Of a stretch of DNA of 64,000 nucleotides, positions 3,691 to 47,093 are shown piece by piece. The stretch comes from Prostheceraeus crozeri. Taxonomy: Eukaryota; Platyhelminthes; Polycladida; Euryleptidae. The DNA lies in assembly GCA_907163375.1 (NCBI GenBank), contig CAJQUW010003182.1, positions 1 to 64,000 on the forward strand, read 5' to 3'. The stretch's first letter is position 1. The number at the start of each line of letters is the position of its first letter. The notes under the pieces are model-generated. The model had not been told where the DNA came from, made no database searches, and worked only from the letters and a program-made list of their open reading frames with translations. The position numbers and the translations under genes were made by a program.

Positions 3691-5516
3691 CGATGATTCC
3701 ACCATCCTCGTCTTAGCATTTCTCACTGCATAGTGCACACTGTGAATCGAAGTCAGACATCGATGTGTGTTTTGGTGTGTGCGACAGCACGCACGCCTCT
3801 CTCATTGCCTCTGGTATCCTCTGCTGACAGCTTATTGTTTGCCATTTCCAATAGTAAGCGACACACGAATTATCAATTCGAGAAGGAGGAAGTTGTCTAA
3901 TTCTCTCAGATGAATCTAATTCTGTGAGCAAAATAGTTGCTAGCTTAAATAAAGCAACCCGAACCTGGGCCGAAAAATGAAACCTGAACCGGTCCGAAAG
4001 CGCAGAAATAAAAATAATGCGAATTCAGGTTCGTAGTGTTTTTTAATATGCACATTCATTTAGTAGCGATCAATTTACAAATCATAGGTGAAGAGAATTG
4101 TTAAAAAATCGTTTCATTTAATTGTTTATCAATTTGTACTTTATTTAATTTTTTGTCAGATTATCCCTGATAGTTTGATATTGGGATTTCCATTAATGAT
4201 GTGCGCTGAAGATTGCTTAAGATAAGTTGCGATCGAATGCAGTTACGGACGTTTTCTGTACGGTCGGTCACAGTTAAGATCTAACCATACATCGCCATTT
4301 TCCGATCAGCACTGTGACAGCTATAACTGAGCTATTTTTAAGCAATTCATGAGAAAGCTCAAAGCTTACACGTGGCGTTAGTTTAAAATTCATAATAACT
4401 ACAGGGTGCGCATTAAAAATGTGACAACATGTTGATATAGCATTGACTTTCTAATTATGCAACAGAAATTAACAAATAAGGTCTCATTTTGAAGTCAATA
4501 CAAATCTCTATTGCCATAATCAACATCGCAATGATTGCATTTGACGATGGAGAGCATCATGCACATGCAAAACAGAAGAACTCAGAAGTCAAGAAACTAG
4601 ATGAAAAGAAGAAAGATTGAATGAAAAAGCTAGCTTACTTTCAATTCTTCACTTAAATGATAATGATCATGGCGAAGTCTCTCACCATGGTTGCAAATGA
4701 CAGCTTTCATTTCAACCATATAATACTGAATATTTATAGGTATACATAGAGGGATCGATTAGTTGAATCAAATATCTTTAGGAGATTCATACTCAGAGCA
4801 TTATGTGGCTTTCATCAGAGAACAGTATAACTTACATCTCTATAAACTATCTACAAAATCGAATTTCAAATTTAGAATGAGAAGTATGGTCCTACAGCTC
4901 TTAATCTTTGCTCTATTTTGTCACTGAATTTTGTCAAACTATAAGCAGAGATACGTAGAGAGAAAAAGAGTCAATTAAACGATGCGTGTAGTACTTTGGT
5001 AAAAACAGATACAACTCCTGCGAAAAAAAATCATGCAAAAATTTTCCCTCTGAAGAAGAGCGAAACTCGAAACGTGTAGGGGTTGTGTGTATTTTTACCA
5101 ATCTGCTTATTACTTGTGTCCAATGCCTAGTACATCAGTTGCATCCGCATTGGACACCGCATAAAATTGCTAAGCAGATAAAGTGATCCCGCGATGAAGA
5201 GCTCAGTGAAAAATCATGGGTACATAGAAAATAATCTAATGGTCAAAAGTAAGTGTGATGACATATTTCTACATAAATGAAAAATATTTAGGGTTTAACT
5301 TCGAAGAGACGTGGAGACTTTTGAAGAAATGAAACAGGAAAATGCAAAATTTCTGGCTTTCCGTTACATGGCGTGATTGTGGAAGGATGATTCAATAATC
5401 ACCCAATTGATGCTGTGTGATCATCTATAACAGAAGGACTTCTCCATGAAGATCATCGTTCAATAAGTGAAGAATTGAAGGTATACTAGCCTTTTCATTC
5501 AGTCGCTGTTCTTTTC

Positions 5517-5522
5517 ATCTGG
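5517..5522. repeat. Target-site duplication ATCTGG, left
   Basis: ATCTGG directly abuts the left tip of the palindromic element and recurs exactly at 13885-13890 after the right tip. A 6-bp duplication is the size made by Polinton/Maverick integrases and by some retroviral integrases. Confidence 0.8.
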
Positions 5523-5789
5523 AGTAGTAATCCCATCCCAGGCGCAAGTCCAAAATGCGCAACGATGAGTCATCATGCTGACTCAGCCCCCCCCCCTCTG
5601 GAAGGAAGAGAAGTGGTCAAGGATGTGATGGAAGGATGGGTCCGAGAAGAAGAAACTGCTCCCTACCCCCCTCTGGAAGGAAGGAAGGAAGAGTTTTCCT
5701 GTGAGGCAAGGGGTGGAACGGCAGAGTTGGAAAAAGGCGGATTTTGGTGTTGGTGGTTTTGGGATGAGAAAAGTCGTTTTCCGTCATGA

Positions 5790-6215
5790 AGGAGTGCTCG
5801 GATGGGAAAACGGAGTACAAATTCGGAATTTTTGGCCAATTTTGGGTCTAGTACTTCTTTCCAGCTCAATCGGAGAGAAAAGGTTCTGACCCTCCCTCTG
5901 GACGAGACTTCCAACTTTGGTTCTAGAGATCGTAGAAAGTCGTGCAATAGCTCATTTGAAAGCTAAGAGTGAGAAAATTGCATTGGAAGAAACGGCTTGT
6001 TCATATCTGCGCCTTCGTTTAGATGTGAGACGTCATTGAAAATTTTGGACATTGGCGAAAAAACGAGAGTTAGAATTTTTACGAAAACGGCTCTAGCGGG
6101 TGAACCAAGCCTCGGATGGGAAAACAGAAACCAGATTTGGAATCAGTGTGCCATTTTGCATCTAGAGGGTGAGTTTCAAGTCAATCAGAGCACTAGAACC
6201 GGAGAGAGACGTGTT
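5790..6215. repeat. Diverged tandem units in the element tip
   Basis: Two related blocks, about 5795-5885 and 6108-6215, each begin CTCGGATGGGAAAAC, continue with a CARATTYGGAAT-like word, a TTTTG..TCTAG segment and a TCAATC.GAG segment, and end in GGAGAGA. The inverse copy lies at about 13200-13640. No coding frame is preserved across the units. Sub-terminal repeats of this kind are common in DNA-virus and Polinton ends; their function here is unknown. Confidence 0.55.
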
Positions 6216-6263
6216 TAAAGATTTGGATAATGGATATTACGTCATCAGCTGATCGCCACAAAC

Positions 6264-6320
6264 TATATAAGCGGGGAACCGACAGAGACTTTTCATTAAG
6301 ACGAGAGCGATTGTCAAAGG
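6264..6320 (+). promoter_or_regulatory. Promoter cassette P1: TATATAA, short leader, splice donor
   Basis: TATATAAG at 6264-6271 is followed 56 nt later by a donor site, CAAAG/GTAGGT (GT at 6320). Transcription starting about 30 nt after the TATA box would give a leader exon of under 30 nt. The same layout recurs at 7513-7570 and 9973-10023. The likely acceptor is CTGACAG ending at 6778, just before structured RNA block A. The mirror copy in the right arm is at about 13092-13150. Confidence 0.65.
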
Positions 6321-6778
6321 TAGGTCGTCTCTCTGAGCTCCGATGATAGCATCGGACATTCCAAATTTCGGGTTTCTGTGATTAACCGACTTAGAAAATT
6401 TCATTGGTGATATCAGCTAAGGCGTCAGACTTAAAGGTTTGCCAGGAGATAGCCTTCGTCTCCAGCCCATAAAAGACTCCAAAACTTTAAAGGCTTGTAA
6501 CTTTGCTTCTACAAGTCCGTTTGACTTGATTCAAAAAAGGTTCGATAGCTATTGATCAGACCTATAGTGACAGACTACTTATAAAATTTCATAAGTAATA
6601 CTAAAAAGTTGAAAAATTTAAATTCACTATTTTTGGAGATTTTCTGGGGTTTTCGACCCTGCTGAAGTCAATGAAGGCATGGTTAAGTGTGTACAAGTCA
6701 GTCTTACCATGATACAAGCAGCTTTTCACTGAAAGCGAGCATGACACGGAGAGTTTTGCTGTAATATTCCACTGACAG

Positions 6779-6900
6779 GGTGTTCCTTCGGGACGGCGGA
6801 TGATGCCGTAGTGATAAGTGTGCCAAGGGAGTGTGTCATATTTTAGACCGAAACCGCTGGGGCAACTCATGTTGGTCATTTGACACAGTTCTCAACGTAG
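6779..6900 (+). ncRNA. Structured-RNA-like block A (left arm)
   Basis: This block follows a plausible 3' splice site (ATTCCACTGACAG, ending at 6778). It aligns almost without gaps with block B at 10153-10275. Shared parts: a UUCG tetraloop hairpin (loop 6787-6790); an immediately following CGGC/GCCG hairpin (6794-6797 with 6805-6808) whose 7-nt loop differs between copies; an invariant GACCGAAACC (6846-6855); and an AUGUUG/CAACGU stem (6869-6874 with 6893-6898) with an 18-nt interior in both copies. Sense frames differ between the copies or hit stops, so conservation of a protein in the sense direction is unlikely. An antisense open frame (6879 to 6601) covers it but is not kept in frame in block B. 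It may be a non-coding exon, a 5' leader structure or a packaging-type signal. It matches no RNA family I can name. Confidence 0.5.
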
Positions 6901-6988
6901 CACTTTGAACGCCAATCGGTTGAGTCTTAGCTATCTTGTCATGGGTGGCATCTAAACATCTCCATTGCAAAACGCTTGTGAATCACGG

Positions 6989-7018
6989 CTTGCTATCCCT
7001 CTCTACGGCTTGCTATCA
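6989..7018 (+). repeat. CTTGCTATC motif pair
   Basis: Two copies of GGCTTGCTATC occur 20 bp apart (6987-6997 and 7007-7017). The wider motif YTTGCTATCAAA recurs at 7588, 7666, 7731, 10040 (CTGCTATCAGG), 10061 (CTTGTTATCAAA) and 10084 (CTTGCTATTAA), with inverse copies in the right arm. It is absent as a cluster outside the element. Confidence 0.55.
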
Positions 7019-7512
7019 AGCTGATCAAAGCAACGACTTGGGATGTTTCCTCTTGTAAATAACTCCACCGGTTTTTATGTCCAAATCGGGGCCCGGATAA
7101 CAACACAGTGACATGACGCACGCTCTGTCCGCCCGAGGTTGGATTTGTGGTTCGAGGCTTTGGAGCTGGGATAAGATCCCCTCTGAGTAATGCCTGTAAC
7201 GGATTCAAGAGCTTAACACCTAAGCGCTTGCCATCGAGTCGCTATCAGGCTTTTGTGAAATCTCGTCTAGCCTCAGTAACTCAGGGCTGGCAACGTCTAT
7301 CGTTTGTCATTGTAACTTGGTAAAAATGAGACGGTTACTGCAGGCATTGACGTCAAACCTTTTCGCGTCATAGGATAACCCGTCTTTCTGTTGGGAGTTG
7401 GTAACTGAAAGCACGGTGACTGCCGATGCCCATACATGGTAAAACCGCTGTTGTCATGTGAAACGCATGGCCAAATAAGGAAGGTCTGAATCATGGCTTT
7501 GTGCTCGCTGGG

Positions 7513-7570
7513 TATATAAACCGCGTCTTTTCTCTAGTCTTCACTCCTGTTTAAGTTGCAAGACGAACGG
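7513..7570 (+). promoter_or_regulatory. Promoter cassette P2: TATATAAA, short leader, splice donor
   Basis: TATATAAA at 7513-7520 is a canonical TATA box. A donor, GAACG/GTGAGT, lies at 7570, 57 nt downstream. The cassette precedes the coiled-coil gene; the implied 5' intron (7570 to about 7790) holds three TTGCTATCAAA motifs and a branch-point-like ATAACTAAG (about 7773-7781). The mirror cassette in the right arm has its TATA box at about 11893-11900 on the minus strand. Confidence 0.7.
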
Positions 7571-7587
7571 TGAGTGCTCTGACAAGG

Positions 7588-7743
7588 TTTGCTATCAAAA
7601 TTTGGGTTTTAGGATAGAGCTAGGAATCATACTCTTTAAATTTGGTTGACGATTTTATTCCAACGTTTGCTATCAAATGTTTGGAGTCTTAGTCTTTCAA
7701 TGCATATCAGCAAGTAGTATCCTATAAACACTTGCTATCAAAT
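7588..7743 (+). repeat. Three TTGCTATCAAA motifs inside the P2 leader intron
   Basis: TTTGCTATCAAAA (7588), TTTGCTATCAAA (7666) and CTTGCTATCAAA (7731) are spaced by 78 and 65 bp. Inverse copies occur at about 11668, 11738 and 11815 in the right arm. Their place downstream of splice donors suggests a splicing, protein-binding or DNA-maintenance role, which is inference only. Confidence 0.6.
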
Positions 7744-7795
7744 TTTACTCTATCTTTACAAAATCTTTACAATAACTAAGCAATGTAATGCAAGA

Positions 7796-8907
7796 ATGCT
7801 TGCTGGGAAATGCAGCTGTGGCCGCATCGCACGAGGCAGCGATCTTAAAAAGCACCTAAAAGCTAAAGAGGGGACGATGGGCCATGAGAGGAAAGTGATG
7901 TTGAGGCTGTGTGTGTCTTGTCGGATATGTGCGATGGGGGATGAGGCAGAGTTTATGAAGGCGCATTTGCAGTGTGAGACTGGGAACATCGGAGAGAAGG
8001 GGTTCAAGTCATGGTTTGAGGGAATATTGTTGGCAATGGAGGAGAATGATAAGGATGTAGCTTTGATTGTGAAGGGGATGGCTGAGAAGAGTGATGAGGA
8101 TGCGACTGAGGAAGTGGAGTTGAGAGCGGAAATTAGGAAGACTGATGAGGTTGATTTGGATGCGGTGATGGAAGATTTGTTTGGGGATATAGCTGATTTG
8201 AAGGACGAGTGGGACGCACAGGAAAAGAAAGACAGGGAGAGTCAGGAAGTTGTTGAGCCTGTGGCTACATCATCGCCTAGGAAAGAGGTGCATGATATGG
8301 AGGCGTTTGTGAGGTTGAAGGATCGTATGATGGGTATGGAGAGTGTGAATAGAAAAGTTTTGAAGGAGAATAAAGAGCTGAAGGCTAAGGTTGAGGGTAT
8401 GAAGGTGATGAGAGAGGAGTTGGAGGAGATGCGAGTGAAGGAGCAGGAGTGGTTGAAGGAAAGGAGCGGAATGATGAAGCGAGTGAAGGTGGTTGAGGGC
8501 TTAGAGTCGGAGTTGATGTGTGAGAAGAATGAGGTGGAGCGGATGCGAGGTGTCGTGAAGGAAGTGGAAGAGACGAAGGTGATAAACAGGCGGTTGTTGT
8601 CGGAAGTGAAGCGATTGCATGAGCGTGAGAAGTGTAGAAAAAGAAGAGTGTATGAAGTCCATCTTCCCCTCTTTGAAAATAATGTGTGCGATGCCCCATC
8701 CATCACAAGTGACCCAAATCAGATGCAGGAGTGCTACGAGGGCGACGGAGTCCGATGTCTACACATGAGCATGGACATCACCGGCCAGCTTGAGGACTTC
8801 GTCGTCCGAAAAATTCGGAAGAAAGTTCCCAGTAAGTTACTTCAACATGATCATTTCCTTACCGCATCTAATCTCCTATTCTTTTTCTTTCAGAGTTCTT
8901 GCAATAG
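7796..8907 (+). CDS. Spliced zinc-finger/coiled-coil protein of the palindromic element (349 aa)
   Basis: Not recognised. Reading starts at ATG 7796. A 62-bp intron (GTAAGT at 8832 to TTTCTTTCAG ending at 8893) joins 8831 to 8894 in frame and gives a stop at 8905-8907; unspliced, the frame would run to 8914 through intron sequence. The first ~65 residues hold two Cys/His clusters: a CxC with a histidine about 13 residues later, then a C-x2-C with a later HxxC, so a small zinc-binding fold is likely. Residues ~70-160 are strongly acidic; ~160-290 form a long E/K/M/R-rich helix with heptad spacing, i.e. a coiled coil, ending in a basic CRKRR stretch. The right arm has a second upstream in-frame ATG that reads ATA here, so the original start may have been 8 codons earlier. 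P2 drives it; a poly(A) signal lies at 9039. Role unknown; an oligomeric nucleic-acid-binding protein is inference. Confidence 0.65.
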
Positions 8908-9038
8908 TCGATGAAGAGAGAGTGTAGCATCGGTGGGCGGAGAACGCCCCATGATCCCTCTTAAGGTCTACCTTCTAATGCAGCTAAAGCGGTCCCAAGC
9001 CCGCCACATATCTTCGGATATGGAATGCAGAGGGAAAA

Positions 9039-9044
9039 AATAAA
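9039..9044 (+). terminator. Poly(A) signal AATAAA for the coiled-coil gene
   Basis: AATAAA lies about 130 nt after the predicted stop codon and before the convergent gene's end. Confidence 0.55.
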
Positions 9045-9381
9045 TGATGAAATGGGAGGCCACCCTTGCACCACATGCAACACACCAGACTTCTCTCTTC
9101 AGTAGTGAACAAGCTCTGAACGCTATTTTACTGTATCGCAGTCGATTGCTATACAAGTATTAAAGAAAACGTAAGTTAGTAAAATCACCCGAAAACATAG
9201 GGAGACATGTGATGTTCCAAATATAGTTATTTCGAAGATTGAACTCAACATGATAAACCATTGATGAATAATACTACCATGAAGGGTAACAAGTCTACCG
9301 TTTATAGAAATCAACTACATGGTATCAGTAGAGACTCGTTACCTCTAAAGCATAGTTAGCAAAAAGTCATCTAAAAAAACT

Positions 9382-9834
9382 TTATTTGGTCTTTGATTTA
9401 ACATCATTGGAATCCACTTTACTAATATCAATGACAATATGGTTTATGTTATTCAGAAGCAAATGATCGCCGTAACGATAAAAGTTGTCCATCCGAGAAA
9501 TAATCTTCCGCAGATGTCGTGTATAAAACTCAGAAGCATCAGTAACATATTCTTGTCCATAGGAACGAAATTGAAAGTCAACACTTTCCGCTACTTCACC
9601 TCGTAGAAAATGAGTGTAATTGACATGTGCAATTAAGTGAGCCTTGATAAAACTGTCTTTGAAATATGATATCAACTCCGTTAATATTTCTCGTGTGTAG
9701 TCTAAACATGCTTCCAATTCTGTCTCCTCCCTTTGAAACTCAAGGATGTAATCTTGTATTAAGCGTCCGAAGCTCTCTTGATGAAAACGAATCGTGCAAT
9801 CATCATGTTTCAATGTATTGACTTCGGGCGCCAT
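9382..9834 (-). CDS. 150-aa helical protein, possibly histone-fold-like
   Basis: Complete frame from ATG at 9834 to TAA at 9382-9384; the TAA is itself part of an AATAAA poly(A) signal (9381-9386), a compact 3' end. Not recognised with confidence. The protein looks all-helical with an HDD motif near the start and no membrane segment. Residues ~22-33 (FGRLIQDYILEF) resemble histone H3 helix 1 (F.RLV.E...DF), and the next ~30-residue amphipathic helix resembles H3 helix 2 in length and pattern (L[IV]..F.D). The rest could hold a second, weaker helix-loop-helix. This is by-eye similarity only; any helical bundle is an alternative. The gene is convergent with the coiled-coil gene and divergent from cassette P3, sharing about 135 bp of upstream DNA. 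In the right arm only the first 13 codons remain (10633-10671). Confidence 0.6.
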   Translation of the reverse strand: MAPEVNTLKHDDCTIRFHQESFGRLIQDYILEFQREETELEACLDYTREILTELISYFKDSFIKAHLIAHVNYTHFLRGEVAESVDFQFRSYGQEYVTDASEFYTRHLRKIISRMDNFYRYGDHLLLNNINHIVIDISKVDSNDVKSKTK

Positions 9835-9972
9835 GGTTGAGTCTATTGCTAAACATCATGTTTGCCTAGGACGATTTCAATAACGCGTTACAAATGTGTG
9901 TGCGCACATCGGGAAGTCTAGCTCATCTGTGATTGGACGAGAGGTCTCATCCATTCACCGCTTAGGAAAATC

Positions 9973-10023
9973 TTTTAAGAGGCAGTGCACCAGCTCTGCT
10001 CTTCACATTTATCTTTCACAAGG
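9973..10023 (+). promoter_or_regulatory. Promoter-like cassette P3: TTTTAAGA, leader, splice donor
   Basis: A weaker TATA-like TTTTAAGA (9973-9980) is followed 50 nt later by CACAAG/GTGAGT (GT at 10023), the same spacing as P1 and P2. Downstream are CTGCTATCAGG, CTTGTTATCAAA and CTTGCTATTAA, then a pyrimidine-rich tract ending CTCGAG at 10152, directly before structured RNA block B. The mirror copy (10440-10500, minus strand) points into the same spacer. Confidence 0.5.
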
Positions 10024-10059
10024 TGAGTGTCGGTGATCTCCTGCTATCAGGTTGTTTTG

Positions 10060-10408
10060 ACTTGTTATCAAATTGAATAGTCTCTTGCTATTAAGAGATT
10101 CACTTCTGGTCATAAAAAACATTTCATCGTTGTAATACCTCCTTGCCTCGAGCGTTCCTTCGGGACGGCGGGTTCTGCCGTAGAGGGATTGCGTTGCACG
10201 GGTTGTTCGTCGTTTGTTAGACCGAAACCTCTGAGCCGTTGCTTATGTTGGGCGTTCGACTTCATACTCAACGTGACCCTTTCTCTCGCCAGGTCAGAGT
10301 ACTTCAGCCATTCGACAAAGGTTAGTCTTTATGATATGGAGTAGAGTGAAATGTAATTCATTAGATGTTACTTCAATGATTGTTCCCATATGATAAACGT
10401 TGACTAGG
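10060..10408. other. Central spacer of the palindrome
   Basis: This 349 bp is the only part of the element's core without an inverse partner. It carries structured RNA block B on the plus strand and otherwise no open frame of note. Because P3 and its mirror both face it, converging transcription is possible. Confidence 0.6.
10153..10275 (+). ncRNA. Structured-RNA-like block B (spacer copy)
   Basis: Diverged paralogue of block A. It keeps the UUCG tetraloop hairpin (loop 10159-10162), the CGGC/GCCG hairpin (10166-10169 with 10177-10180, variable 7-nt loop), GACCGAAACC (10220-10229) and the AUGUUG/CAACGU stem (10245-10250 with 10269-10274), with the same 18-nt interior. Sequence between these landmarks differs freely while spacing is nearly constant, as expected for a folded RNA. 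It begins right after an AG preceded by a pyrimidine tract, again like the start of a second exon. Family unknown. Confidence 0.5.
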
Positions 10409-10439
10409 CAAAACAACCTGATAGCAGGAGCTCACCGAC

Positions 10440-10500
10440 ACTCACCTTGTGAAAGATAAATGTGAAGAGCAGAGCTGATGCACTGCCTCTTAAAAGATTT
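10440..10500 (-). promoter_or_regulatory. Mirror copy of cassette P3
   Basis: Reads TTTTAAGAGGC on the minus strand (about 10498 down) with a donor AAG/GTGAGT at about 10446. One leader base differs from the left copy. It points into the central spacer. Confidence 0.45.
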
Positions 10501-10632
10501 TCCTAAGCGGTGAATGGATGAGACCTCTCGTCCAATCACAGATGAGCTAGACCTCCCGATGTGCGCACACACATTTGTAACGCGTTATTGAAATCGTCCT
10601 AGGCAAACATGATGTTTAGCAATAGACTCAAC

Positions 10633-10671
10633 CATGGCGCCCGAAGTCAATACATTGAAACATGATGATTG
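10633..10671 (+). pseudogene. Truncated start of the 150-aa gene (right arm)
   Basis: The ATG and first 13 codons match the gene at 9382-9834, then the sequence jumps at the deletion junction into the antisense strand of the coiled-coil gene. The product, if any, would be a short chimera. Confidence 0.75.
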
Positions 10672-10672
10672 C

Positions 10673-11641
10673 CCTCGTAGAACTCCTGCATCTGATTTGG
10701 ATCACTTGTGATGGATGGGGCATCGCACACATTATTTTCAAAGAGGGGAAGATGGACTTCATACACTCTTCTTTTTCTACACTTCTCACGCTCATGCAAT
10801 CGCTTCACTTCCGACAACAACCGCCTGTTTATCACCTTCGTCTCTTCCACTTCCTTCACGACACCTCGCATCCGCTCCACCTCATTCTTCTCACACATCA
10901 ACTCCGACTCTAAGCCCTCAAGCGCCTTCACTCGCTTCATCATTCCGCTCCTTTCCTTCAACCACTCCTGCTCCTTCACTCGCATCTCCTCCAACTCCTC
11001 TCTCATCACCTTCATACCCTCAACCTTAGCCTTCAGCTCTTTATTCTCCTTCAAAACTTTTCTATTCACACTCTCCATACCCATCATACGATCCTTCAAC
11101 CTCACAAACGCCTCCATATCATGCACCTCTTTCCTAGGCGATGATGTAGCCACAGGCTCAACAACTTCCTGACTCTCCCTGTCTTTCTTTTCCTGTGCGT
11201 CCCACTCGTCCTTCAAATCAGCTATATCCCCAAACAAATCTTCCATCACCGCATCCAAATCAACCTCATCAGTCTTCCTAATTTCCGCTCTCAACTCCAC
11301 TTCCTCAGTCGCATCCTCATCACTCTTCTCAGCCATCCCCTTCACAATCAAAGCTACATCCTTATCATTCTCCTCCATTGCCAACAATATTCCCTCAAAC
11401 CATGACCTGAACCCTTCTCTCCGATGTTCCCAGTCTCACACTGCAAATGCGCCTTCATAAACTCTGCCTCATCCCCCATCGCACATATCCGACAAGACAC
11501 ACACAGCCTCAACATCACTTTCCTCTCATGGCCCATCGTCCCCTCTTTAGCTTTTAGGTGCTTTTTAAGATCGCTGCCTCGTGCGATGCGGCCACAGCTG
11601 CATTTCCCAACAAGCATTCTTGCATTACATTGCTTAGTCAT
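10673..11641 (-). pseudogene. Broken right-arm copy of the coiled-coil gene
   Basis: Nearly identical to the left-arm gene, read from an ATG at 11641 that precedes the left copy's start by eight codons. A one-base deletion near 11408-11415 splits it into an N-terminal zinc-cluster part and a C-terminal acidic/coiled-coil part starting near 11387. The last exon and intron are missing because the deletion junction lies at about 10672. The N-terminal frame keeps the first ATG that the left copy has lost, so the two copies have decayed in different places. Confidence 0.8.
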
Positions 11642-11892
11642 TGTAAAGATTTTGTTAAGATAGAGTAAAATTTGATAGCAAGTGTTTATAGGATACTACT
11701 TGCTGATATGCATTGAAAGACTAAGACCCCAAACATTTGATAGCAAACGTTGGAATAAAATCGTCAACCAAATTTAAAGAGTATGATTCCTAGCTCTATC
11801 CTAAAACCCAAAGTTTGATAGCAAACCTTGTCAGAGCACTCACCGTTCGTCTTGCAACTTAAACAGGAGTGAAGACTAGAGAAAAGACGCGG

Positions 11893-11900
11893 TTTATATA
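11893..11900 (-). promoter_or_regulatory. Mirror TATA box of cassette P2
   Basis: TTTATATA on the plus strand (TATATAAA on the minus strand) sits in the same context as 7513-7520, with the GTGAGT donor at about 11843 on the minus strand. Confidence 0.6.
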
Positions 11901-12512
11901 CCCAGCGAGCACAAAGCCATGATTCAGACCTTCCTTATTTGGCCATGCGTTTCACATGACAACAGCGGTTTTACCATGTATGGGCATCGGCAGTCACCGT
12001 GCTTTCAGTTACCAACTCCCAACAGAAAGACGGGTTATCCTATGACGCGAAAAGGTTTGACGTCAATGCCTGCAGTAACCGTCTCATTTTTACCAAGTTA
12101 CAATGACAAACGATAGACGTTGCCAGCCCTGAGTTACTGAGGCTAGACGAGATTTCACAAAAGCCTGATAGCGACTCGATGGCAAGCGCTTAGGTGTTAA
12201 GCTCTTGAATCCGTTACAGGCATTACTCAGAGGGGATCTTATCCCAGCTCCAAAGCCTCGAACCACAAATCCAACCTCGGGTGGACAGAGCGTGCGTCAT
12301 GTCACTGTGTTGTTATCCGGGCCCCGATTTTGACATAAAAACCGGTGGAGTTATTTACAAGAGGAAACATCCCAAGTCGTTGCTTTGATCAGCTTGATAG
12401 CAAGCCGTAGAGAGGGATAGCAAGCCGTGATTCACAAGCGTTTTGCAATGGAGATGTTTAGATGCCACCCATGACAAGATAGCTAAGACTCAACCGACTG
12501 GCGTTCAAAGTG

Positions 12513-12635
12513 CTACGTTGAGAACTGTGTCAAATGACCAACATGAGTTGCCCCAGCGGTTTCGGTCTAAAATATGACACACTCCCTTGGCACACTTATC
12601 ACTACGGCATCATCCGCCGTCCCGAAGGAACACCC
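12513..12635 (-). ncRNA. Structured-RNA-like block A, right-arm copy
   Basis: Inverse copy of 6779-6900 with all helices preserved. Because both arms are nearly identical, this copy adds no independent evidence for structure beyond the A/B comparison. Confidence 0.45.
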
Positions 12636-13884
12636 TGTCAGTGGAATATTACAGCAAAACTCTCCGTGTCATGCTCGCTTTCAGTGAAAAGCTGCTTGTA
12701 TCATGGTAAGACTGACTTGTACACACTTAACCATGCCTTCATTGACTTCAGCAGGGTCGAAAACCCCAGAAAACCTCCAAAAATAGTGAATTTAAATTTT
12801 TCAACTTTTTAGCACTACTTATGAAATTTTATAAGTAGTCTGTCACTATAGGTCTGATCAATAGCTATCGAACCTTTTTTGAATCAAGTCAAACGGACTT
12901 GTAGAAGCAAAGTTACAAGCCTTTAAAGTTTTGGAGTCTTTTATGGGCTGGAGACGAAGGCTATCTCCTGGCAAACCTTTAAGTCTGACGCCTTAGCTGA
13001 TATCAGCAATGAAATTTTCTAAGTCGGTTACTCACAGAAACCCGAAATTTGGAATGTCCGATGCTATCATCGGAGCTCAGAGAGACGACCTACCTTTGAC
13101 AATCGCTCTCGTCTTAATGAAAAGTCTCTGTCGGTTCCCCGCTTATATAGTTTGTGGCGATCAGCTGATGACGTAATATCCATCATCCAAATCTTTAAAC
13201 ACGTCTCTCTCCGGTTCTAGTGCTTCGATTGACTTGAAACTCACCCTCTAGATGCAAAATGGCACGCTAATTCCAAATCTGGTTTCTGTTTTCCCATCCG
13301 AGGCTTGGTTCACCCGCTAGAGCCGTTTTTGTAAAAATTCTAACTCTCGTTTTTTCGCCAATGTCCAAAATTTTCAGTGACTTCTCACATCTAAACGAAG
13401 GCGCAGATATGAACAAGCCGTTTCTTCCAATGCAATTTTCTCACTCTTAGCTTTCAAACGAGTTATTGCACGACTTTCTACGATCTCTAGAACCAAAGTT
13501 GGATATCTCGTTCCAGAGGGGGGGGATCAGAACTTTTTCTCTCCGATTGAGCTGGAAAGAAGTTCCTCGACCCAAAATTGGCCAAAACGTCCGAATTTGC
13601 ACTCCGTTTTTACATCTGAGCACTCCTTCATGCCGAAAAACGACTTTTCTCATCCCAAAACCATCAAAACCTGCCTTTCTCCAACTCTGCCGTTCCACCC
13701 CTTGCCTCACAGGAAAACTCTTCCTTCCTTCCTTCCAGAGGGGGGTAGGGAACAGTTTCTTCCTCTCGGACCCATCCTTCCATCACATCCTTGACCACTT
13801 CTCTTCCTTCCAGACGGGGGCTGAGTCAGCATGATGACTCATCGTTGCGTATTTTGGACTTGCGCCTGGGATGGGATTACTACT

Positions 13885-13890
13885 ATCTGG
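13885..13890. repeat. Target-site duplication ATCTGG, right
   Basis: Exact repeat of 5517-5522, abutting ...TTACTACT, the right tip of the element. Confidence 0.8.
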
Positions 13891-14331
13891 TTTCTTGGAT
13901 TTCGAGGTCTTCTTATTTGTATGCATATTATACTCTCATCCTCAAATGCAGTCATTGGATGTTGATTATGGTAATAGAGATGTGTATTGGCATCAAAATG
14001 AGACCTTATTTGTTAATTGCCGTTGGATCATTATAAAGTTAAAGGAGAAATATGTCAGTTTCAAATGTTAACTTTATACTAATCAACACAATTAGAAAAT
14101 CTTCATATCGAAATCACGAAGTTCTAACTCGTTGTGAGAAGCCTGAAATATCGCAGAGAACCTACTGGTTAGGGAGTTGCTTCATCGACCAATCAAATCC
14201 AAGCAAGAAGTTCGACGTCACAAAGCACCCTACGCTGTTGATCTGTGAACCACGCAATCGCCAGCCAGCAGCAAGCAGTAGCCTTGACTGAATCACCCCG
14301 CATTCGAGATCTTGATTGTGAAAGTACATGC

Positions 14332-14958
14332 ATGGCAAGTTTAAACGGAGAATCAGATATTTCCAATGTTACTCAGCCTTATTTGTTTGAGCCCACAATG
14401 TCAATTCATTCTAGTGAAAGTTCGGTTGGGCATTTCCCAGAGTCAAGGCAAGGTAACGATAATGCGGAATGTACTTGCGGCAATTGTCAATCTACTTTGA
14501 ATTCAAATGAAATTTGTTGCTGTAGGCTTAGCAATCTTATAGAAAGAAAGCTAGAATCACGTTCCTGCATAACGGAAAAAGAATCATTCAAGGTTGTCTG
14601 TCTTGATAAAACTGTGCTATATGTGAGCTTCAGGCGAATACTGACTATACGTAAGAAGAGGAGAAAACAACATACAGATGTTTTCAATAACAAAGCATGC
14701 CGATGGACAGCGTATGGACAGTTTATATTTTGGATATATGATGGTCCTATAGGACAATCAGTGAGGAAAGTGCTACCTACTTGCGTTTACAACGCAATTC
14801 GATTCAAATTTCCCTCGGATGACGGTATATATTCGGATTTCAAAGTTGGTGTGATTGATGATATTTTTATCGAATATGAGAGCGATTGCAATTCGGTGAA
14901 AGAGATCGATCACTCAGAGACTACCGGTACTATTATTTTTATAGTGTGCGCTAGCTAG
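14332..14958 (+). CDS. P2X7 intracellular (ballast)-domain protein
   Basis: First ATG in a long open frame (the frame is open upstream from 14245, but without ATG), giving 208 aa. About 50 residues in begins CTCGNC, followed by ..E.CCC, then a CIT..E.F..VCL segment. Later comes the AY..F..W...G.(I/L)G...RKV.P.C....IR..FP...G.Y..F block, closing near residue 180. This cysteine pattern and order match the zinc-binding cytoplasmic ballast domain of P2X purinoceptor 7, which marine invertebrates often carry as stand-alone proteins without the channel part; no membrane segment is visible here. The domain looks complete and undamaged. AATAAA follows the stop within a few bases (14964-14969). Single-exon structure suits a retrocopy or an expanded domain family. 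Function beyond zinc binding is unknown. Confidence 0.8.
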   Translation: MASLNGESDISNVTQPYLFEPTMSIHSSESSVGHFPESRQGNDNAECTCGNCQSTLNSNEICCCRLSNLIERKLESRSCITEKESFKVVCLDKTVLYVSFRRILTIRKKRRKQHTDVFNNKACRWTAYGQFIFWIYDGPIGQSVRKVLPTCVYNAIRFKFPSDDGIYSDFKVGVIDDIFIEYESDCNSVKEIDHSETTGTIIFIVCAS

Positions 14959-29572: not shown

Positions 29573-31027
29573 CCTTATTAGTCCGGCAGAATAATGGCAA
29601 AAATTGCCGAACCTTGTTTTGGAGTCTAAAGTTTTTTTTATTACAGAAAATCCTTCATTAGGTCATCTGGGAACAGAAACTGCCGGGTGCCCAGCTGGCA
29701 CCCTTGGGCAATTTGATCTAGAGGGCCAAATCCAAAATGGCGGCCACCAAACCTAAAAAATGCATTTTTGTCATGTCTTCGGAAGTATATGAGGTAGAAG
29801 TGCCAACCAAAGGCATGTAAATAGTTTTTTAGATATCAGGATTATAATTCTAACTTAGTTGAATCGACTCGGTGAGGCTACGAGCATATTCTGATAATAG
29901 TAGTATATTCATAAGTAGTATTTATGCTACAACCATAATAATAATAGTAATATTTGCAATAATAATTTTGATGATATGGATAGAATGCATGAAGTAGATG
30001 CAGCCTATTGTAAACATGTTTCACTGTATATTTCCTTTCAGACGATTCATTTCTGCTTCCTTTCGTGTTTCGTCCGAATATTTTGGAGTATCATACCTGA
30101 ATGGATGGAAATGAGCGCTGGTGCTTATCAAGCGCTAAATGGGCCTGTGAAACATATGCAATTAATGTTTGGACTTATCTGACTTTTTGATGAAGTGATG
30201 CGTATAAAACTGCCTTCCCCCGTACATATCACTGAGCGTTCTTTGTCATTTTTACCCAGTTGTGAACTGTAATTTGTCTAATTTGTGAAATTTTATTATA
30301 AAATAGATGTCTTGTTTCAGAAAATTGACCTTTTTCTTCAACATCATGTATTATGATTCCTGTCAACAGGACATCTTATGTTGGTGGTGAATCTTTGCTT
30401 AGCAATATATCTGCGTAGGCTACATGAGCATGTGCATTTATCATTATATTGTCTGCAGTTCGTTGTACTACTTTGTCATTCGGAAACCATAGGAAGTATA
30501 TCCCCTATTAGCAAATGCGACTCAAATGCGACACAGCTGAATCAACTGGAAATCTCACTGATAACCAAGTCAATCGCATTGAGAAGGTGATCTGTCGAAC
30601 TGGAAGACGAGGCTCGCTTTTTATTCCAACTTTTTGTGGTGAATAGTTAACATCGTTCTTTGCTTTCACCGCCTCTGCACTACCAGAAGCAGTTTTCATT
30701 TTTACAGCTAGGCTTAATCAACTTACGTACGTGCGTATTTTAGAGATTTGTGTTCGAATATGCGGTTTGTTTTATCTTTAGGTACTACCATACTCCGTTG
30801 TGCATGTATCCATTTAAACTTCTAATTCTATCATAACCAAACGTAAGTATTTTTAAGCTTGATTGCTTAATGGTTCTTGGTTTAGAGAATGTCGATGTCT
30901 TTGTAAGTTCAGTAGGCTATAACATAGTGCGCTTCTTGGTGTAGAAATTAATGTTGGTGTCAGTAATGTGCAGTTTGATTGAGACAAGTATTTGAATTCG
31001 TCTTTTGCATTTTCAGATCATGAATTG

Positions 31028-34000
31028 ATGGACGAGGAATGTTACTTCAAGTGGAGGTATGCGTGTGGTGACAAGAGAGAAAGACTGAATGATTCCGGAC
31101 CGAAACGAATTGAAAGCATCATCAAATGCAGTAAAATTTATCTTGATGACAAACATAAACTGCTTGAAGACCTGTTGCGAGAAGATAATAACTGTATTGC
31201 TAAGTGTCATAAGAGCTGTGTCAGCAGGTATACCTCAAAAACGCACATAGAGAGACATATGAAAACAACGAAACGAAATGATGAATCCTCTCTGAATCCT
31301 CCACCAGTAAGAACACGAAACTCTAGCGGTACAATCTTCAGTTTTAGAAAGCATTGTCTCTTCTGTGGGGAAGACTGTTCTTTGGACAAGAATCCGAAGC
31401 ATCCTAGTACATGGAAGCCAGCATATTTGTGTCGCGAACTTGCCAAGAAAGGACAAAAGCCTTTGAAGCTATATTTGCTGGAAATTTGTGACTCGCGGGT
31501 TGACGACTGGGGTTGGGCAGTAAAGGCAAGGATAGAGGGAGCCATAAGTGACTTGCATGCAGCTGACGCACGATACCACGTAGCATGCCGATGCAAGTTC
31601 ATGGCACACAGATCTGTTATGTGTGCTACAAGCGTGACGTCGAGCGATGATACAGATGAGGCTTTGAATTGTCTAGTGAGATCTCTTGAAGAGAACACAA
31701 AGCACGTGTGGAGTTCTGTAGATCTGTTCAATTTGTATCAAGGCTTTGGAGGTACTTGTCTATCTCGCAGGAGCCTAGTTGCGACTCTCTCTGAATACTT
31801 CGGGACGGAAGTCCTAATGTTGAGTTCCCCTGGCATAGCGAATATCCTAATCTTCCGAAGTACTGCATCAACGCTCCTGAAAGTGGTCGACGAAGACGAG
31901 GACGATCTGAATGCTGCACTGACGAAAGTCTCAAAGAATGTTAAGAAGGAAGTGCAAGAAATTCCAAAGAACAAGCTTCATTATGAAACTGAAATGAGTC
32001 ATGAAATAGCCGCAGAATCCGTGAGTGAGACTGTACTCGCTTTACTCTCGAAGCTGTCCCCCAAATTAGATAGAACTCTACCTGCCATTCTGATCGGTTC
32101 CATCATCACAACTGCATTGCACAATCATCCGACGAGTCTTCAGATTGACCTGGGAATAGTTATTCGTGATTCGAAAAAACTTATTAATTTGATGCATGGA
32201 TTTGGCGTAACCTGCTCCTACGACGAAGTACTGCGCTTCAAAAAATCAACCGTTACTTCAGTAGCAGAGGAATTAGACTTGTCAGGAATTTCGGACGCGA
32301 ATAATGGGCTGATTCAAGTCATAGCTGACAATTTCGACGCAGACATAGCGTCTCAGAACGGTAAATTGTCGACCAATTCGCTAGCAGTGCTGTTCACTCA
32401 AAGTGAACAGCAATGTATGATGGCTGATCAACAAGATACACGTATTATCAAACGCATAACGAATGAGGATGTGCGCAAGTATGTAGAGTTCAATCTGGAA
32501 ATTGAGAGATTCAAAGGACCGAAGAAACCTGCATTACCACCAGAAGCCACGACAAGACCAGTGCTTTCACTGAAGATGCTCTCTCTGAAGGCGTTGTCAC
32601 GTCAAAGGGCTGAAGAAGGAGATACCGCTTTCCTGGGAGACATCATCCTCCAAGATCGATGTCCAGAGTACAATGGGTACAACACCGGCAGCAGTCGCCA
32701 AACAGGAATATCGCCGCAACCAAAAACCAAACCCATATACCTGCCTCTAATCGACATGAGGCCCTCTGATCCGGGTACCATGATGACAGCACTAGCAAGA
32801 GCACAATGTCTCACTGAGCAGACAGGTCAGGAATATGTCGTAATGACATGTGACTTGCAGTTGTACCGTGTAGCTCTGCAAATAATATGGACCTACCCTG
32901 ATAGATTCTCAAATGTCATTATGAGGCTCGGAGGCATGCATTCCCTCATGAGCTTCGTTGGATGTGTAGGAACGCTGATGACTGAAAGTGGACTTTCTGA
33001 TATCATGAATGAGGTGTTCGGAGGAGTGCAGAAGATGCTATCAGGAAAGAAATTTCCTCAAAACGTGAGGGCGCTATGACTTATTGTGGAGGAATTACTG
33101 AGAGACATCATGGGGGAGACTTCGATAACATGCAAGAATGACTTGATGAACATATTGGAGAAACTCAGCAGTAGCAGAAAGACTGCCAAATTGTGGGTGG
33201 ACGTTTTGATAAAACCAGTATTCATCATGATGATGTTCATCAGAGCAGAGCGAGAAGGAGATTGGCCACTTCATCTCGAAGCGTTTGCCTTAATGATGCC
33301 CTACTTCTTCGCCGCTGGTCATGTACACTACGCTCGATACGGCCTATTGTATCTCAGATCGATGGAATCACTCTCCCGAAAGGTCTTGGATCACTTTCTG
33401 AAAGGGGAACATGTCTTAAGACACAACCGTGGTGTATGGAATGGGATCTGGAGTGATATGTACATTGAAACTGCATTCATGAGATACGGTCACGGCAAGG
33501 GTGGTATTATCGGAATAACTTTGAAGCCTGAGTCATTGACGACCTGGGCATTGAGTCTTCATTTGTGTAGTAAGCTGGAATCAGATCTGAGTGAGATGAT
33601 AGATGGCGGTGGAGACGTTGTGCAGCTGAAGCATAAGGAAGAATCTCAAAGTAGAATTTCGAGTGACCAAAAGGACAGGAATGGAATACGACAGAGACTT
33701 TCATTATGTATCGATCCCCTGGACCCAAGCAGTCATCCCGACGGGATTGTGAATATAATTACAGGCAGGATCGGGCCTACTACAGTAAACGTTCACAATT
33801 CTGTCGAAGTTGGGCGCAGACAAATGTCAGAATTTGAATCAAGATGGCCAGAGGATTTCCACAAGACCATAAACAGAAAGATCACGACCATGGCAGTGAC
33901 GAGGAAAAATATCACAGTTGGTGGACGAAGAATCTTTGATACTTCCCTCATCTACTCTAAAGTCATAGGTCTACAGGCCAGCTCTCGGCAGGTTGATATT

Positions 34001-35337
34001 AAGGTGTTACTGAAACATGAACTAGCACCAATACCAACATCAATGTTTACAGATGCTGGAGAAATGAGGTCTGCTACAGGAAAATCTGTCCTAAAAAAAC
34101 ATTTTAATGTCGACGCTTCTTCAAGACCTACGTCTGAAGGATCCATGGTGATTGATGGCACTGCTGTGCTATGGGTGGTGCACTGGCCTACGAATGGCAC
34201 TGTGGGAAATTATGTCATGAATTTCAAACGATATCTCATACAAAAAGTGAAAAAAGAAGATGTTTATCTAGTGTTTGATCGCTATTACGATTACAGTACC
34301 AAAAGTGTCACACGGAGTTCCAGGAATGCCAGCAGAATTCACCATAAGCTAGGCATGACAACAGAGTTGCCTCCACAGAAAGTAATCCTCACCGTCACTG
34401 AAAACAAGAAACAACTCATTGAAATCATATGCAATGAACTGAAAGATGACATTTGCTTCCATCGGGAGATACAAGGTCACAAATTAATCATCACGTCCCA
34501 AGAAGAAACTCCGATAGAGATCAGAAATGGGAAAATTCTCACAAGATATGACATGACCACATCGCATGAAGAGGCAGACATCATTATTGCACAGCAAATG
34601 CTCTTGGCTGCAAAGGAATCCGCTGCCAGCATCACTATCATATCAGATGATACAGACGTCTTCGTTCTCATTTTGCATTATTATCAAACGGAGGGATTAA
34701 GTTGCGCAGTGTTGATGGAATCTCCAGTAAGAGATCGAGCAATCGTGGACATTGGAATGACTGTTGCGAAATATATCGACATTATACCAGAACTTTTAGC
34801 GGCCCATGCTCTCACAGGCTGTGATACAGTGGCGTGCTTCTACGGCATTGGCAAAACTACTGCCCTAAAAGTTTTGCGAAGTGGACTCTCTCTCTCTCTC
34901 TCTCTCTGTCTCTTCTGGGCCATGTTGACGCTTCTTTTTCCTCTGTGCTGAAGCAAGCAACTGACTTTTTGATCGCTTGCTATGGACTGAAGAGCTGTAG
35001 TACCATGTCGCAAGCACGTTTGAGAGCTTGGGCAACGAAAACAGGAAAAGGCTGCACATCGACTCCAAGACTCTGCTCCCTGCCACCAACAAGTGAGGCA
35101 TTTGAGCAAAATGTAAAACGTGCCCATTACCAAACAGCCGTGTGGCTCTCTAATGAAGATTTACCAACACTAAATGTCGAGGAGTTTGGATGGAAGAAAG
35201 ATGCCACAAACAAAACGCTTTTACCGACAACTCTGCCGGATACAGTGAATTCAGCACCAGATTCTGTCTTACGACTCATCCCGATGTGGTTGCCGAGGCT
35301 CCAGTCTGCCCTGTACCATTTTTTGTGCATTTTATGA
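31028..35337 (+). pseudogene. Academ transposase with XPG/FEN-like nuclease domain, two lesions
   Basis: First in-frame ATG is 31028; TGCATTTTCAG just before it (ending about 31016) looks like a 3' splice site, so an upstream exon is likely. The N-terminal third has paired Cys/His sets (CIAKCHKSC, LFCGEDC, CRCKF). An in-frame TGA at 33077-33079 interrupts an otherwise continuous frame. The C-terminal third carries the nuclease: VIDGTAVLW (~34147), VFDRYYD (~34275), SHEEADIII (~34561), SDDTDVFVL (~34643) and LTGCDTVACFYGIGKTTALK (~34812-34868). The last resembles the helix-hairpin-helix (H3TH) of FEN1/XPG; the acidic residues match its metal-binding sites. A (CT)11 run at 34886-34907 then shifts the frame; the C-terminal tail continues in another frame to 35337. 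Academ transposons with XPG domains are known; active-site residues here look intact. Confidence 0.75.
34886..34907. repeat. (CT)11 microsatellite inside the Academ gene
   Basis: An uninterrupted CT run lies exactly where the reading frame of the transposase switches. Its length change is the simplest explanation for the frameshift. Confidence 0.8.
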
Positions 35338-43114: not shown

Positions 43115-43715
43115 AGTAGCCCGGGAGCTACTGACACTTTCTTCCTAAATTCGCGCACAAAGGGCTTCATAGCATGGATTTGTAGTCCTCGAAACGCTGA
43201 ATACAAAAATCAAATTCTTGAGTGGCACACCCAGTCGCTTTCGGTTATAGGTAAGGTTGAAAGATTCCCTTTGCAATTCAATGGTAAAATCCAAGTTGAA
43301 AGTTGTAAAAAATCAAGTTGAAGTGAGTCACATGATTCAGTATTTGATGTTTGAGGGCCTCTACAAAATGGGTAAATTTCATGTTTTGATTTAATTTTGG
43401 CGATTTTACCCATTTTGAAGAGGACCTCAAGCTCAAACATCAAATGCTGAATCATGTGACTCACTTCAAGCTGATGTTCTGAATACAATCACGTTTCAAA
43501 TTTCATGGCATTCTGATTAATAATTTTCTATTCTGCAAAAGAAAATGTGCGATTATTGCCAAGTGTTTCACAATCCATAGATATTTCTTGGATTTTACCA
43601 TTGAATTGCAAAGGGAATCTTTCAACCTTACCTATAACCGAAAGCGACTGGGTGTGCACTCAAGAATTTGATTTTTGTGCGCGAATTTAGGAAGAAAGTG
43701 TCAGTAGCTCCCGTC
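43115..43715. repeat. Two-layer foldback structure
   Basis: Outer arms (43115-43310 and 43592-43715) are inverse copies; the left has an extra ~45 bp (about 43160-43205). Inside, 43314-43385 and 43405-43475 form a second inverse pair around CAAAATGGGTAAA. The whole could fold into one long hairpin. The open frames on either strand merely follow the palindrome. Confidence 0.65.
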
Positions 43716-45779: not shown

Positions 45780-46040
45780 TAGTTTGGAGTATAGGATTTA
45801 TGATGATTATACCTGTTGTACTGAGAATTGTCAGAAAATTCTGTTTCTATTGACCGAATGACATGTACTCATTTTGTTGACATCGAAAATCTAGATCAAG
45901 TTAATTAACTTAACATGAATCGTATTCTGCACAACGAATTGTGCGCAGTCTTGAAGTGAATATTGTTCAGTTACTTCCATGTCACACAAAATACCATTCG
46001 ACGATTAAATCACTATCTGAAAAGAATCGAACATAGAAGA

Positions 46041-47093
46041 ATGGATGATTATTCGGTTGCAGAACGAGCAAAATGCGCGGCTTGGTACGAATGGCTCAAG
46101 AGTCCAGTGGAGGTACAAAGGCTTCATCATTCAGAGTATGGCAAGAACGCGAGAGCACCGGATGCCCGTACCATAAAGCGGTGGCACACAAACCTGTTGA
46201 CCAGTGGTAGTGTGGTGACTGTCAAGCGGGACCGGTCATCTTCTGAACGAACGGAGCAGAATGTAGAACGAGTTGTGCAGCACTTCGAGGAGGACCCAGA
46301 CACATCTACCCGTCGTGCATCTAATGCCCTTCAAGTGAGTCGCACTATCCAGCGCATCCTCCATGACTGTGGATGGCATCCGTACAAGGTCCAGGTGCTG
46401 CAACGATTACACGAAGAAGATCTGGAAAACCGAATGGAGTTCGCAGAACAGGAGCTACAGCGCATCCAAGCCAACCCGAGCCATTTAGTGGAACTAACCT
46501 GGTCCGATGAAGCTCACTTCCATCTGGATGGTGGTGTGAATCGCCACAATTGTCGCTATTGGGCCAATCAGAACCCTCACTGGATCAAGCAAGAGTCTAT
46601 GCACTCGCCACGCACCACCGTCTGGGCGGCAATCAGCCAATCAGGTATCTACGGACCGTTCTTCTTCGACATCTCCGTCAACAAGGATCGGTATCTCAAG
46701 ATGCTACAGGAGGAATTTTGGCCAGCGGTGCAGTCGGACAGAAGAGGCAGGAGCATCATATTCATACAGGATGGTGCACCTCCACACTGGGGACTTCCTG
46801 TGCGTGAGTGGTTGAACAGGAAGATGCCTAACAGATGGATGGGACGTGGATCTCCTACCATGCCCTGGCCACCGCGTTCACCTGACCTGACGCCTTGCGA
46901 TTTCTTCTTGTGGGGTTTTGTCAAGTCCAAGGTTTACCATACACGGCCAACATCCATGCAAGACCTGAAGGACTGCATCATACAAGCATTTCAAGAAGTG
47001 ACAACTGAGATGTGTCGAGAAACTGCTCTGGCCTACCAAAAGCGACTCGAATCCGTCCTCGAGAATGGAGGAGGACACGTTGAAGTTCGATGA
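46041..47093 (+). CDS. mariner/IS630-like DDE transposase, DD37D
   Basis: The start is taken at ATG 46041 (350 aa); the frame is open further upstream to 45963, where an ATG also exists, but the family usually begins close to the YSVAERA motif. Residues ~4-65 form the N-terminal helix-turn-helix of the DUF4817 type (SVAERAKCAAWYEW..S.....R.....YG..A....TIKRWH). A second HTH follows at about residues 65-120. Catalytic residues: D in TWSDEAHF, D in IQDGAPPHW and D in RSPDLTPCDFFLWG, with 37 residues between the second and third by my count. The WG.VK..VY and C-terminal ENGGGHVE motifs are present. It cuts and pastes its element into TA sites. No stops or frameshifts. AATAAA follows about 30 nt after the stop. 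Confidence 0.9.
   Translation: MDDYSVAERAKCAAWYEWLKSPVEVQRLHHSEYGKNARAPDARTIKRWHTNLLTSGSVVTVKRDRSSSERTEQNVERVVQHFEEDPDTSTRRASNALQVSRTIQRILHDCGWHPYKVQVLQRLHEEDLENRMEFAEQELQRIQANPSHLVELTWSDEAHFHLDGGVNRHNCRYWANQNPHWIKQESMHSPRTTVWAAISQSGIYGPFFFDISVNKDRYLKMLQEEFWPAVQSDRRGRSIIFIQDGAPPHWGLPVREWLNRKMPNRWMGRGSPTMPWPPRSPDLTPCDFFLWGFVKSKVYHTRPTSMQDLKDCIIQAFQEVTTEMCRETALAYQKRLESVLENGGGHVEVR

Follow-up and report, generated by a model that had tools for sequence, protein, structure and literature searches.

Introduction

Vertebrate Mavericks are reported to carry (AGT)2//(ACT)2 ends, to be flanked by a 6-bp target-site duplication (TSD) and to have terminal arms of 46–1,447 bp (PMC8097293). We analyzed a 64,000-nucleotide stretch of DNA (hereafter, the window) from the flatworm Prostheceraeus crozeri (contig CAJQUW010003182.1, positions 1 to 64,000, forward strand), in which a gene-poor, palindromic insertion of 8,362 bp occupies positions 5523–13884. 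From sequence comparisons, we propose, with a probability of roughly 85%, that this element arose from the left end of a Polinton/Maverick-type family as a defective, snapback-type palindrome and was mobilised in trans. The family resembles Polintons/Mavericks in its 6-bp TSD, its (AGT)2//(ACT)2 ends, the 16–19 kb length of its long members, and the polymerase-B-like motifs and Polinton-like integrase found in two classes of relatives, termed class A and class B, respectively. It differs from them in that class A shows no integrase or capsid match and class B no polymerase match, and in containing a TBP gene, an intron-bearing open reading frame (ORF1) and a twister ribozyme. Its arms of ~4.3 kb (element C8983) and 7 kb (element C11620) also differ from those of vertebrate Mavericks (PMC8097293).

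Single features have counterparts in other systems. Adeno-associated virus (AAV) forms snapback subgenomes in which a terminal repeat and one genome end are copied into an inverted duplex (PMC8235507). As in the present family, the duplex may be symmetric or asymmetric and may derive from either end; however, AAV is a single-stranded parvovirus, whereas the copies described here are integrated copies of a Polinton-type element, and the likeness, drawn by analogy, is one of mechanism and not of membership. Bidnaviruses have a Polinton/adintovirus-type polymerase and, in some members, a segmented DNA genome, but unlike the present family they possess a parvovirus-like helicase and capsid (PMC11071296, PMC4061559). 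RTE retrotransposons have been noted to carry truncated twister ribozymes at their 5′ end (PMC7761336); the ribozyme reported here shares the type-P1 fold and both pseudoknots with known twisters but sits at the 3′ end of a spliced gene carried by a DNA element, with a hairpin on one side and an AATAAA signal on the other. Algal viral elements that lack polymerase and double jelly-roll genes have been reported to contain TBP (PMC10675990). In the available parts of the literature searched (mostly open-access, without bioRxiv preprints), no Polinton/Maverick with a TBP gene, a twister ribozyme or a palindromic form was found.

Results

Insertion site and structure of the palindrome

The insertion starts with AGTAGT at position 5523 and finishes with ACTACT at position 13884, and is flanked by a perfect duplication of ATCTGG (Table 1), in agreement with an initial annotation made from the sequence alone. 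An inverted, diverged host repeat within the window aligned over the joined flanks with 81–83% identity in two BLAST pieces, and contains one ATCTAG where the window reads ATCTGG. Since this repeat spans the joined flanks as if uninserted, the insertion boundary is demonstrated inside the window; the lack of a boundary at 5523/13884 had been set beforehand as one observation that would overturn the annotation, and the repeat upholds the boundary. The empty site that the annotation had called for was therefore present in the window itself, although its single site reads ATCTAG and not ATCTGG.

The long inverted arms described in the annotation were also recovered by BLAST, which paired positions 5523–8743 with 10671–13884 (98.0% identity) and, further inside, 9796–10065 with 10403–10672 (98.1%). 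Positions 8744–9795 are present only on the left, making the right arm 1,052 bp shorter. The arms differ at 50 substituted sites over 5523–8743, with 4 in 5523–5722, 18 in the 200 bp of 5723–5922, 10 in 5923–6259 and 18 in the 2,484 bp of 6260–8743. From its outer end inwards, the left arm contains a terminal region (5523 to ~6160), promoter cassette P1, block A, cassette P2, ORF1, a hairpin, a twister ribozyme, an AATAAA signal, ORF2 on the opposite strand, cassette P3 and block B. With its TATA promoters, spliced leaders, ORF1 and ribozyme 3′ end, the arm looks like the control region of the element family.

Long relatives and the division of genes

We searched the genome of the window (2.05 Gb, 14,165 contigs) and obtained 133 matches to positions 5524–7500 from 39 scored candidates, the window's own two included. 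Nine relatives were read in 18 pieces (elements and pieces are designated by C and L numbers, respectively): six of class A (C8983, C13670, C1942, C2597, C8748 and C9824), two of class B (C8304 and C13930), and C11620. The long members measure 16–19 kb and have similar ends with terminal inverted repeats, one relative end being ATTAGT, and 6-bp duplications. The TSDs were perfect in C8983 (CAGGCC), C1942 (AATGCT), C13670 (TTCCTC) and C11620 (AACTTC) and agreed at 5/6 positions in C2597; in the other four of the nine relatives, the two ends were not both located.

All six class A elements matched the left half of the window element up to position 10402, the end of the query (nearly completely in L013, L020 and L036, with internal gaps in L021, L023 and L032), and then continued into other genes. 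Past the centre lie genes for TBP (truncated in C8983), for a C2H2 protein and for a large protein containing an Endonuclease VII domain (Endonuclease_7, Pfam E = 3.6e-5 in L014). In C8748 and C9824, the sequence read ends before the right end of the element. The large protein contains, in order, the motifs DIE, NFKCYD, LKLDVYLLAD, D..NLYG, KNNALFGK and GDTDS, a series which we take to be that of B-type polymerases; no hidden Markov model (HMM) confirmed it, as the protein matched no polymerase HMM, and it had no match in the PDB. Profile comparisons were weak, with probabilities of 0.3% at polymerase motif B (A4/A11) and 1.9% (A7/A10). Among the matches listed, no class A locus was found in the best 88 scored DNA_pol_B_2 candidates, and a B-type DNA polymerase is absent from the window copy. 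A Tc1-like transposase gene lies inside C2597 (L019:6818–7942, DDE_3, E = 1.2e-17).

The class A TBP shows the two repeats of this protein, each of L019 and L022 matching Pfam PF00352 over two stretches (E = 4.2e-20 and 5.3e-16, respectively); TBPs of solved structure are distant matches (34 PDB sequences, best E = 1.1e-8). We scored 150 copies in the genome, which were 93–100% identical to the query and contained a stop codon in two cases; since these are the best of 11,313 first-look candidates, the sample is biased towards intact copies. The dN/dS values of 0.31–1.30 (10 pairs) gave no proof of purifying selection.

The arms of class B hold P1, block A, P2 and twister-region sequence. The P1/block A/P2 stretches in the arms of both classes are ~88–94% identical to the window, and the twister region of class B is 85–88% identical; one end of each class B element was not found. 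Class B genes encode an integrase, a weakly ATPase-like protein (Pox_A32, E = 0.02), a RING protein and the protein u302. The integrase, present in both elements (rve, Pfam E = 2.9e-11 in C8304), is 39–40% identical to a canonical Polinton integrase of the same genome, and integrase queries found no match in the window or the six class A elements at E ≤ 1e-3. The RING finger belongs to zf-C3HC4_3 (E = 2.5e-9, L018:4439–4957). Protein u302 is ~21% identical to a canonical Polinton protein of the same genome (blastp E = 3e-6 to 5e-6), a likeness that was not regained below the E threshold of 1e-3 in reverse tblastn. Polymerase and TBP queries had no match in the two class B elements at E ≤ 1e-3. 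The canonical Polinton capsid of the same genome matched none of the 18 pieces of the nine relatives at E ≤ 1e-3, although a diverged capsid is still possible, and no protease was seen among the Pfam-scanned open frames, no search having been aimed at it.

Replication and integration genes thus seem to be split between two kinds of element. The ends and TSD are Maverick-like, but a capsid was not found and the integrase and polymerase-type genes were in no case seen together; we therefore class the family as Polinton-type, a provisional assignment with regard to these features. The statement in the initial annotation that Polinton genes are missing holds for the window copy but not for its long relatives. 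The longer parent that it anticipated exists in the form of 16–19-kb elements with a polymerase-type/TBP region past the centre, although integrase and capsid were unmatched in class A. Neither the TBP gene nor the two element classes were visible to that annotation, and it had overlooked the twister ribozyme.

Canonical Polintons are abundant in the same genome (88 candidates scored, 176 DNA_pol_B_2 matches counted). Pieces L025–L031 represent such elements (C7154, C1122 and C8687); proteins encoded in L025 include a double jelly-roll capsid protein, a Pox_A32-type ATPase and an integrase that carries a phospholipase A2-like domain. Part of a canonical Polinton gene adjoins C13930 (L034:2–589).

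Other palindromes

Palindromes recur in this genome and seem to derive from both ends of the family's elements. C11620 (14.9 kb) is palindromic over ~7.1 kb per arm and has its TSD on both sides. In C8983, a copied left arm of 4.3 kb (99.4% identity) adjoins the truncated TBP. The centre of C6222 lies inside the polymerase-type gene (L039, 97% over 1,227 bp), as expected of a right-end derivative; the ends of this element were not established. The TBP search revealed the same +/− arrangement of TBP copies in C381 and C6234, and among the 150 scored copies three +/− pairs were spaced 3.5–5.8 kb apart and no two copies on the same strand were so near each other. C13670 and C1942 have short right terminal repeats, which stop near element position 6160 and are 91.5% and 88–94% identical to the left repeat, respectively. 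The suggestion in the initial annotation of an inverted, possibly defective DNA-virus-like replicon gains support from the correspondence to the left end of a long element, the broken ORF1 copies and these other palindromes.

Genes and RNA elements of the arms

ORF1 encodes a probable nucleic-acid-binding coiled-coil protein, with Cys/His-rich N and C ends and a long coiled coil. In relatives it begins 8 codons upstream, where the left copy of the window has ATA (7772–7774). Both window copies are damaged, the left by this ATA in place of the ATG kept in the right arm, and the right by a frameshift and the missing 3′ end. Spliced genes had been noted in the annotation, and the ORF1 intron is present in seven copies from six relatives; splice sites and promoters were called from sequence and conservation. 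The dN/dS values were 0.25–0.58 for ORF1 (15 pairs from six copies) and 0.46–1.04 for ORF2 (10 pairs), the latter giving no proof of purifying selection. Among 5.8 billion proteins, ORF1 had two relatives (68% and 40% identity) and ORF2 one (86% over 74%). Searches of both against Pfam and PHROGs, and of ORF2 against the PDB, returned nothing useful, and the structure models were poor (mean pLDDT 60.3 for ORF1 and 42.2 for ORF2). No relative was found in viral contigs queried with P0002, ORF2, A2 and the RNA-block pattern, or in genome contigs queried with A2. In the palindromic C11620, a 288-aa ORF with no Pfam match at E ≤ 0.1 occupies the position of ORF1 (L015:3792–4655 and L016:3605–4468).

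The window copy of the ribozyme matched the Rfam twister-P1 model with 35.1 bits (E = 2.2e-5 in a 2-kb search and 7.1e-4 in the whole window); all twister scores reported here are below the Rfam gathering score of 67.2. In the relatives, we searched 6 of the 18 pieces of the nine elements (55.5 kb) and obtained six hits at E ≤ 0.1, all of them twister, one per piece, with 31.1–41.3 bits (best in L017). A chance match was rejected, four of the six relative pieces scoring higher than the window copy and two lower. The ribozyme possesses P1, P2, P4, the conserved loops and two pseudoknots; in the window copy, P1 is weakened and the hairpin has decayed. BLAST located 11 twister sites in the 18 pieces; alignment A5 combined 10 of these with the window copy, L016 being left out as a near copy of L015. 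In these 11 copies, 96.4% of cells pair in the structure with both pseudoknots, compared with 27–49% when the structure was slid by 1–3 columns, a control that is biased in favour of the structure because it was drawn with these sequences in view. When the hairpin–twister structure was compared with 500 shuffles, 7 of them equalled or exceeded its covariation score, 14 did so for the percentage paired and 56 for double-changed pairs; three pairs of the upstream hairpin are changed on both sides. Cleavage by the ribozyme would leave a transcript end ~7 bases past the hairpin, severed from the poly(A) signal.

The three repeated promoter cassettes noted earlier, together with their GT donors, were present in relatives, although the TATA boxes vary: that of P3 is TTTTAAGA in the window copy, with TATAAAA confined to L023 and L036. 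Within positions 5523–10402, the motif TGCTATCA is present six times and TGCTATC seven times (1,000 first-order simulations: mean 0.49, maximum 4). Block A lies behind the P1 donor and block B behind the P3 donor. These paired structured-RNA-like blocks, as they had been described, resemble each other (BLAST E = 1e-6) and are conserved in 18 copies, but their single-sequence folding stability was little or no better than that of shuffles (z = −0.3 to −1.9). Alignment A6 (11 copies of block A and all 7 of block B; L016, L017, L036, the right-arm copy of the window and 38-nt partial matches in L015/L016 were left out) contains 36 predicted pairs, of which 4 are changed on both sides; since most of these double changes distinguish the two blocks, they possibly reflect few events. 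None of the Rfam matches at E ≤ 5 fell on the blocks, and a tRNA scan gave nothing useful. The blocks most likely act as cis-acting or small transcript structures, a predicted role.

Table 1. Positions of the features of the palindromic element and its insertion site in the window
Feature	Positions	Strand	Remarks
Left TSD	5517–5522		ATCTGG
Right TSD	13885–13890		ATCTGG
Diverged host repeat (empty site)	4443–4679	−	Aligned over the joined flanks; single 6-bp site
Left arm (left end of parent)	5523–10065	+	Also in L013 787–6554
Right arm, inverted	10403–13884	−	Without counterpart of 8744–9795
Unpaired palindrome centre	10066–10402		337 bp; class A relatives match through it, then further genes
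Promoter cassette P1	6264–6319	+	TATATAA, short first exon, GT donor 6320
Structured-RNA block A	6782–6906	+	Inverted copy 12507–12631
Promoter cassette P2	7513–7569	+	TATATAA, first exon, GT donor 7570; ORF1 downstream
Three of six TGCTATCA motifs	7584–7746	+	Behind P2 donor
ORF1	7796–8907	+	Two exons, intron 8832–8893 (62 nt)
Hairpin preceding ribozyme	8954–8969	+	2/5 pairs broken in window copy
Twister-P1 ribozyme	8972–9038	+	Rfam
Poly(A) signal AATAAA	9039–9044	+	Directly 3′ of ribozyme
ORF2	9385–9834	−	150 aa; related proteins at far end of long relatives
Promoter cassette P3	9970–10022	+	Pointing to centre; GT donor 10023
Structured-RNA block B	10154–10282	+	In centre
Right-arm ORF1 copy	10671–11641	−	ATG intact, 1-nt frameshift near 11415, 3′ end deleted

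Other features of the window

Near the right flank of the element, positions 14242–14958 contain an ORF with a P2RX7 C-terminal-type domain (Pfam E = 1.5e-15). Positions 30983–34951 contain two neighbouring long open frames of 698 and 623 aa, perhaps one interrupted gene; NYN and DUF6589 gave weak matches, below the cut-off, to the latter frame. At 43314–43473, both strands matched several miRNA models with scores under the respective gathering thresholds, which an inverted repeat probably explains. A Tc1/mariner-like transposase (46038–47090, DUF4817/DDE_3) lies within 45780–47344, flanked by perfect 88-bp inverted repeats (45780–45867 and 47257–47344).

Discussion

The short, diverged right repeats of C13670 and C1942, together with the uneven divergence of the window arms, suggest that the right tip of the palindrome is probably the parent's own and that the rest was copied from the left. 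A replicating parent would retain its own diverged right terminal repeat; within or just past that repeat, synthesis would switch to the left arm and copy inwards, and the new copy would be joined back to the left arm at 10402/10065. Since the palindrome has the ends required for replication and integration, enzymes of the parent could have inserted it in trans with the 6-bp duplication, and the right arm may have lost 1,052 bp at that time or later. Replication would proceed from the ends, TBP of the long relatives may drive transcription from the element's own TATA promoters, and the twister could cut the ORF1 transcript between the hairpin and the poly(A) signal. We discarded a single-step snapback using the left end only, since the outer arm is far more diverged than the inner. 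Several observations weigh against the proposed derivation. The centre junction shares ~1 nt, which leaves the joining step unspecific. The first 200 bp of the arms, with 4 substitutions, are less diverged than 5723–5922, so that constraint or further exchange is required. The arms of C8983 are alike to the very tip, and the uneven pattern is therefore not universal; moreover, the left end of C1942 is ATTAGT instead of AGTAGT.

Assembly of long palindromes is prone to errors, and two inverted copies or a chimeric read might have been misjoined; we regard such an artefact as very improbable, in view of the perfect TSD, the empty-site match of both flanks, the 50 substituted sites and the 1,052-bp deletion between the arms, and the further palindromes elsewhere in the genome. 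It is also improbable, if less so, that the palindrome is the normal state of a natural foldback-like DNA transposon with long terminal inverted repeats kept by gene conversion. C11620, which has a TSD of its own and is palindromic almost throughout, would fit such a transposon, but all six class A elements continue past the window centre into other genes, the centre of C6222 lies elsewhere, and both window copies of ORF1 are broken.

A more serious, though still tentative, alternative is a bipartite Polinton, in which class A (polymerase-type protein and TBP) and class B (integrase, ATPase-like and candidate virion proteins) would be two segments, with common ends, of one virus-like agent and the palindromes defective or further segments. 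Arm sequence of the window element recurs in all six class A and both class B elements, the genes of the two classes are complementary at E ≤ 1e-3, and in class A both ends and a perfect TSD were found for C1942 and C13670. However, class B is represented by two elements, and in neither were both ends located; the C8748 and C9824 pieces end short of the right end; no capsid was identified in class B; ORF1 is also present in the class B element C8304; and common ends would be equally expected of non-autonomous siblings. A fuller version, in which a Polinton-type virus would have a replicase and TBP segment, an integrase and virion segment, an arm mRNA ended by the twister behind a hairpin and without poly(A), and palindromic defectives from both ends, is doubtful.

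Polintons normally keep replication, integration and capsid genes together, whereas here these are apparently divided among elements with the same ends, providing a testable case for the origin of segmented or satellite DNA agents. At least 150 similar TBP copies exist, almost all of those scored being open, and they offer a case of a eukaryotic mobile element that seemingly carries its own basal transcription factor. The position of the ribozyme, after the hairpin and before the poly(A) signal, points to an uncommon route by which mRNA 3′ ends may be made or limited. Finally, the recurrence of palindromes from either end would amount to a fossil record of snapback replication in Polintons.

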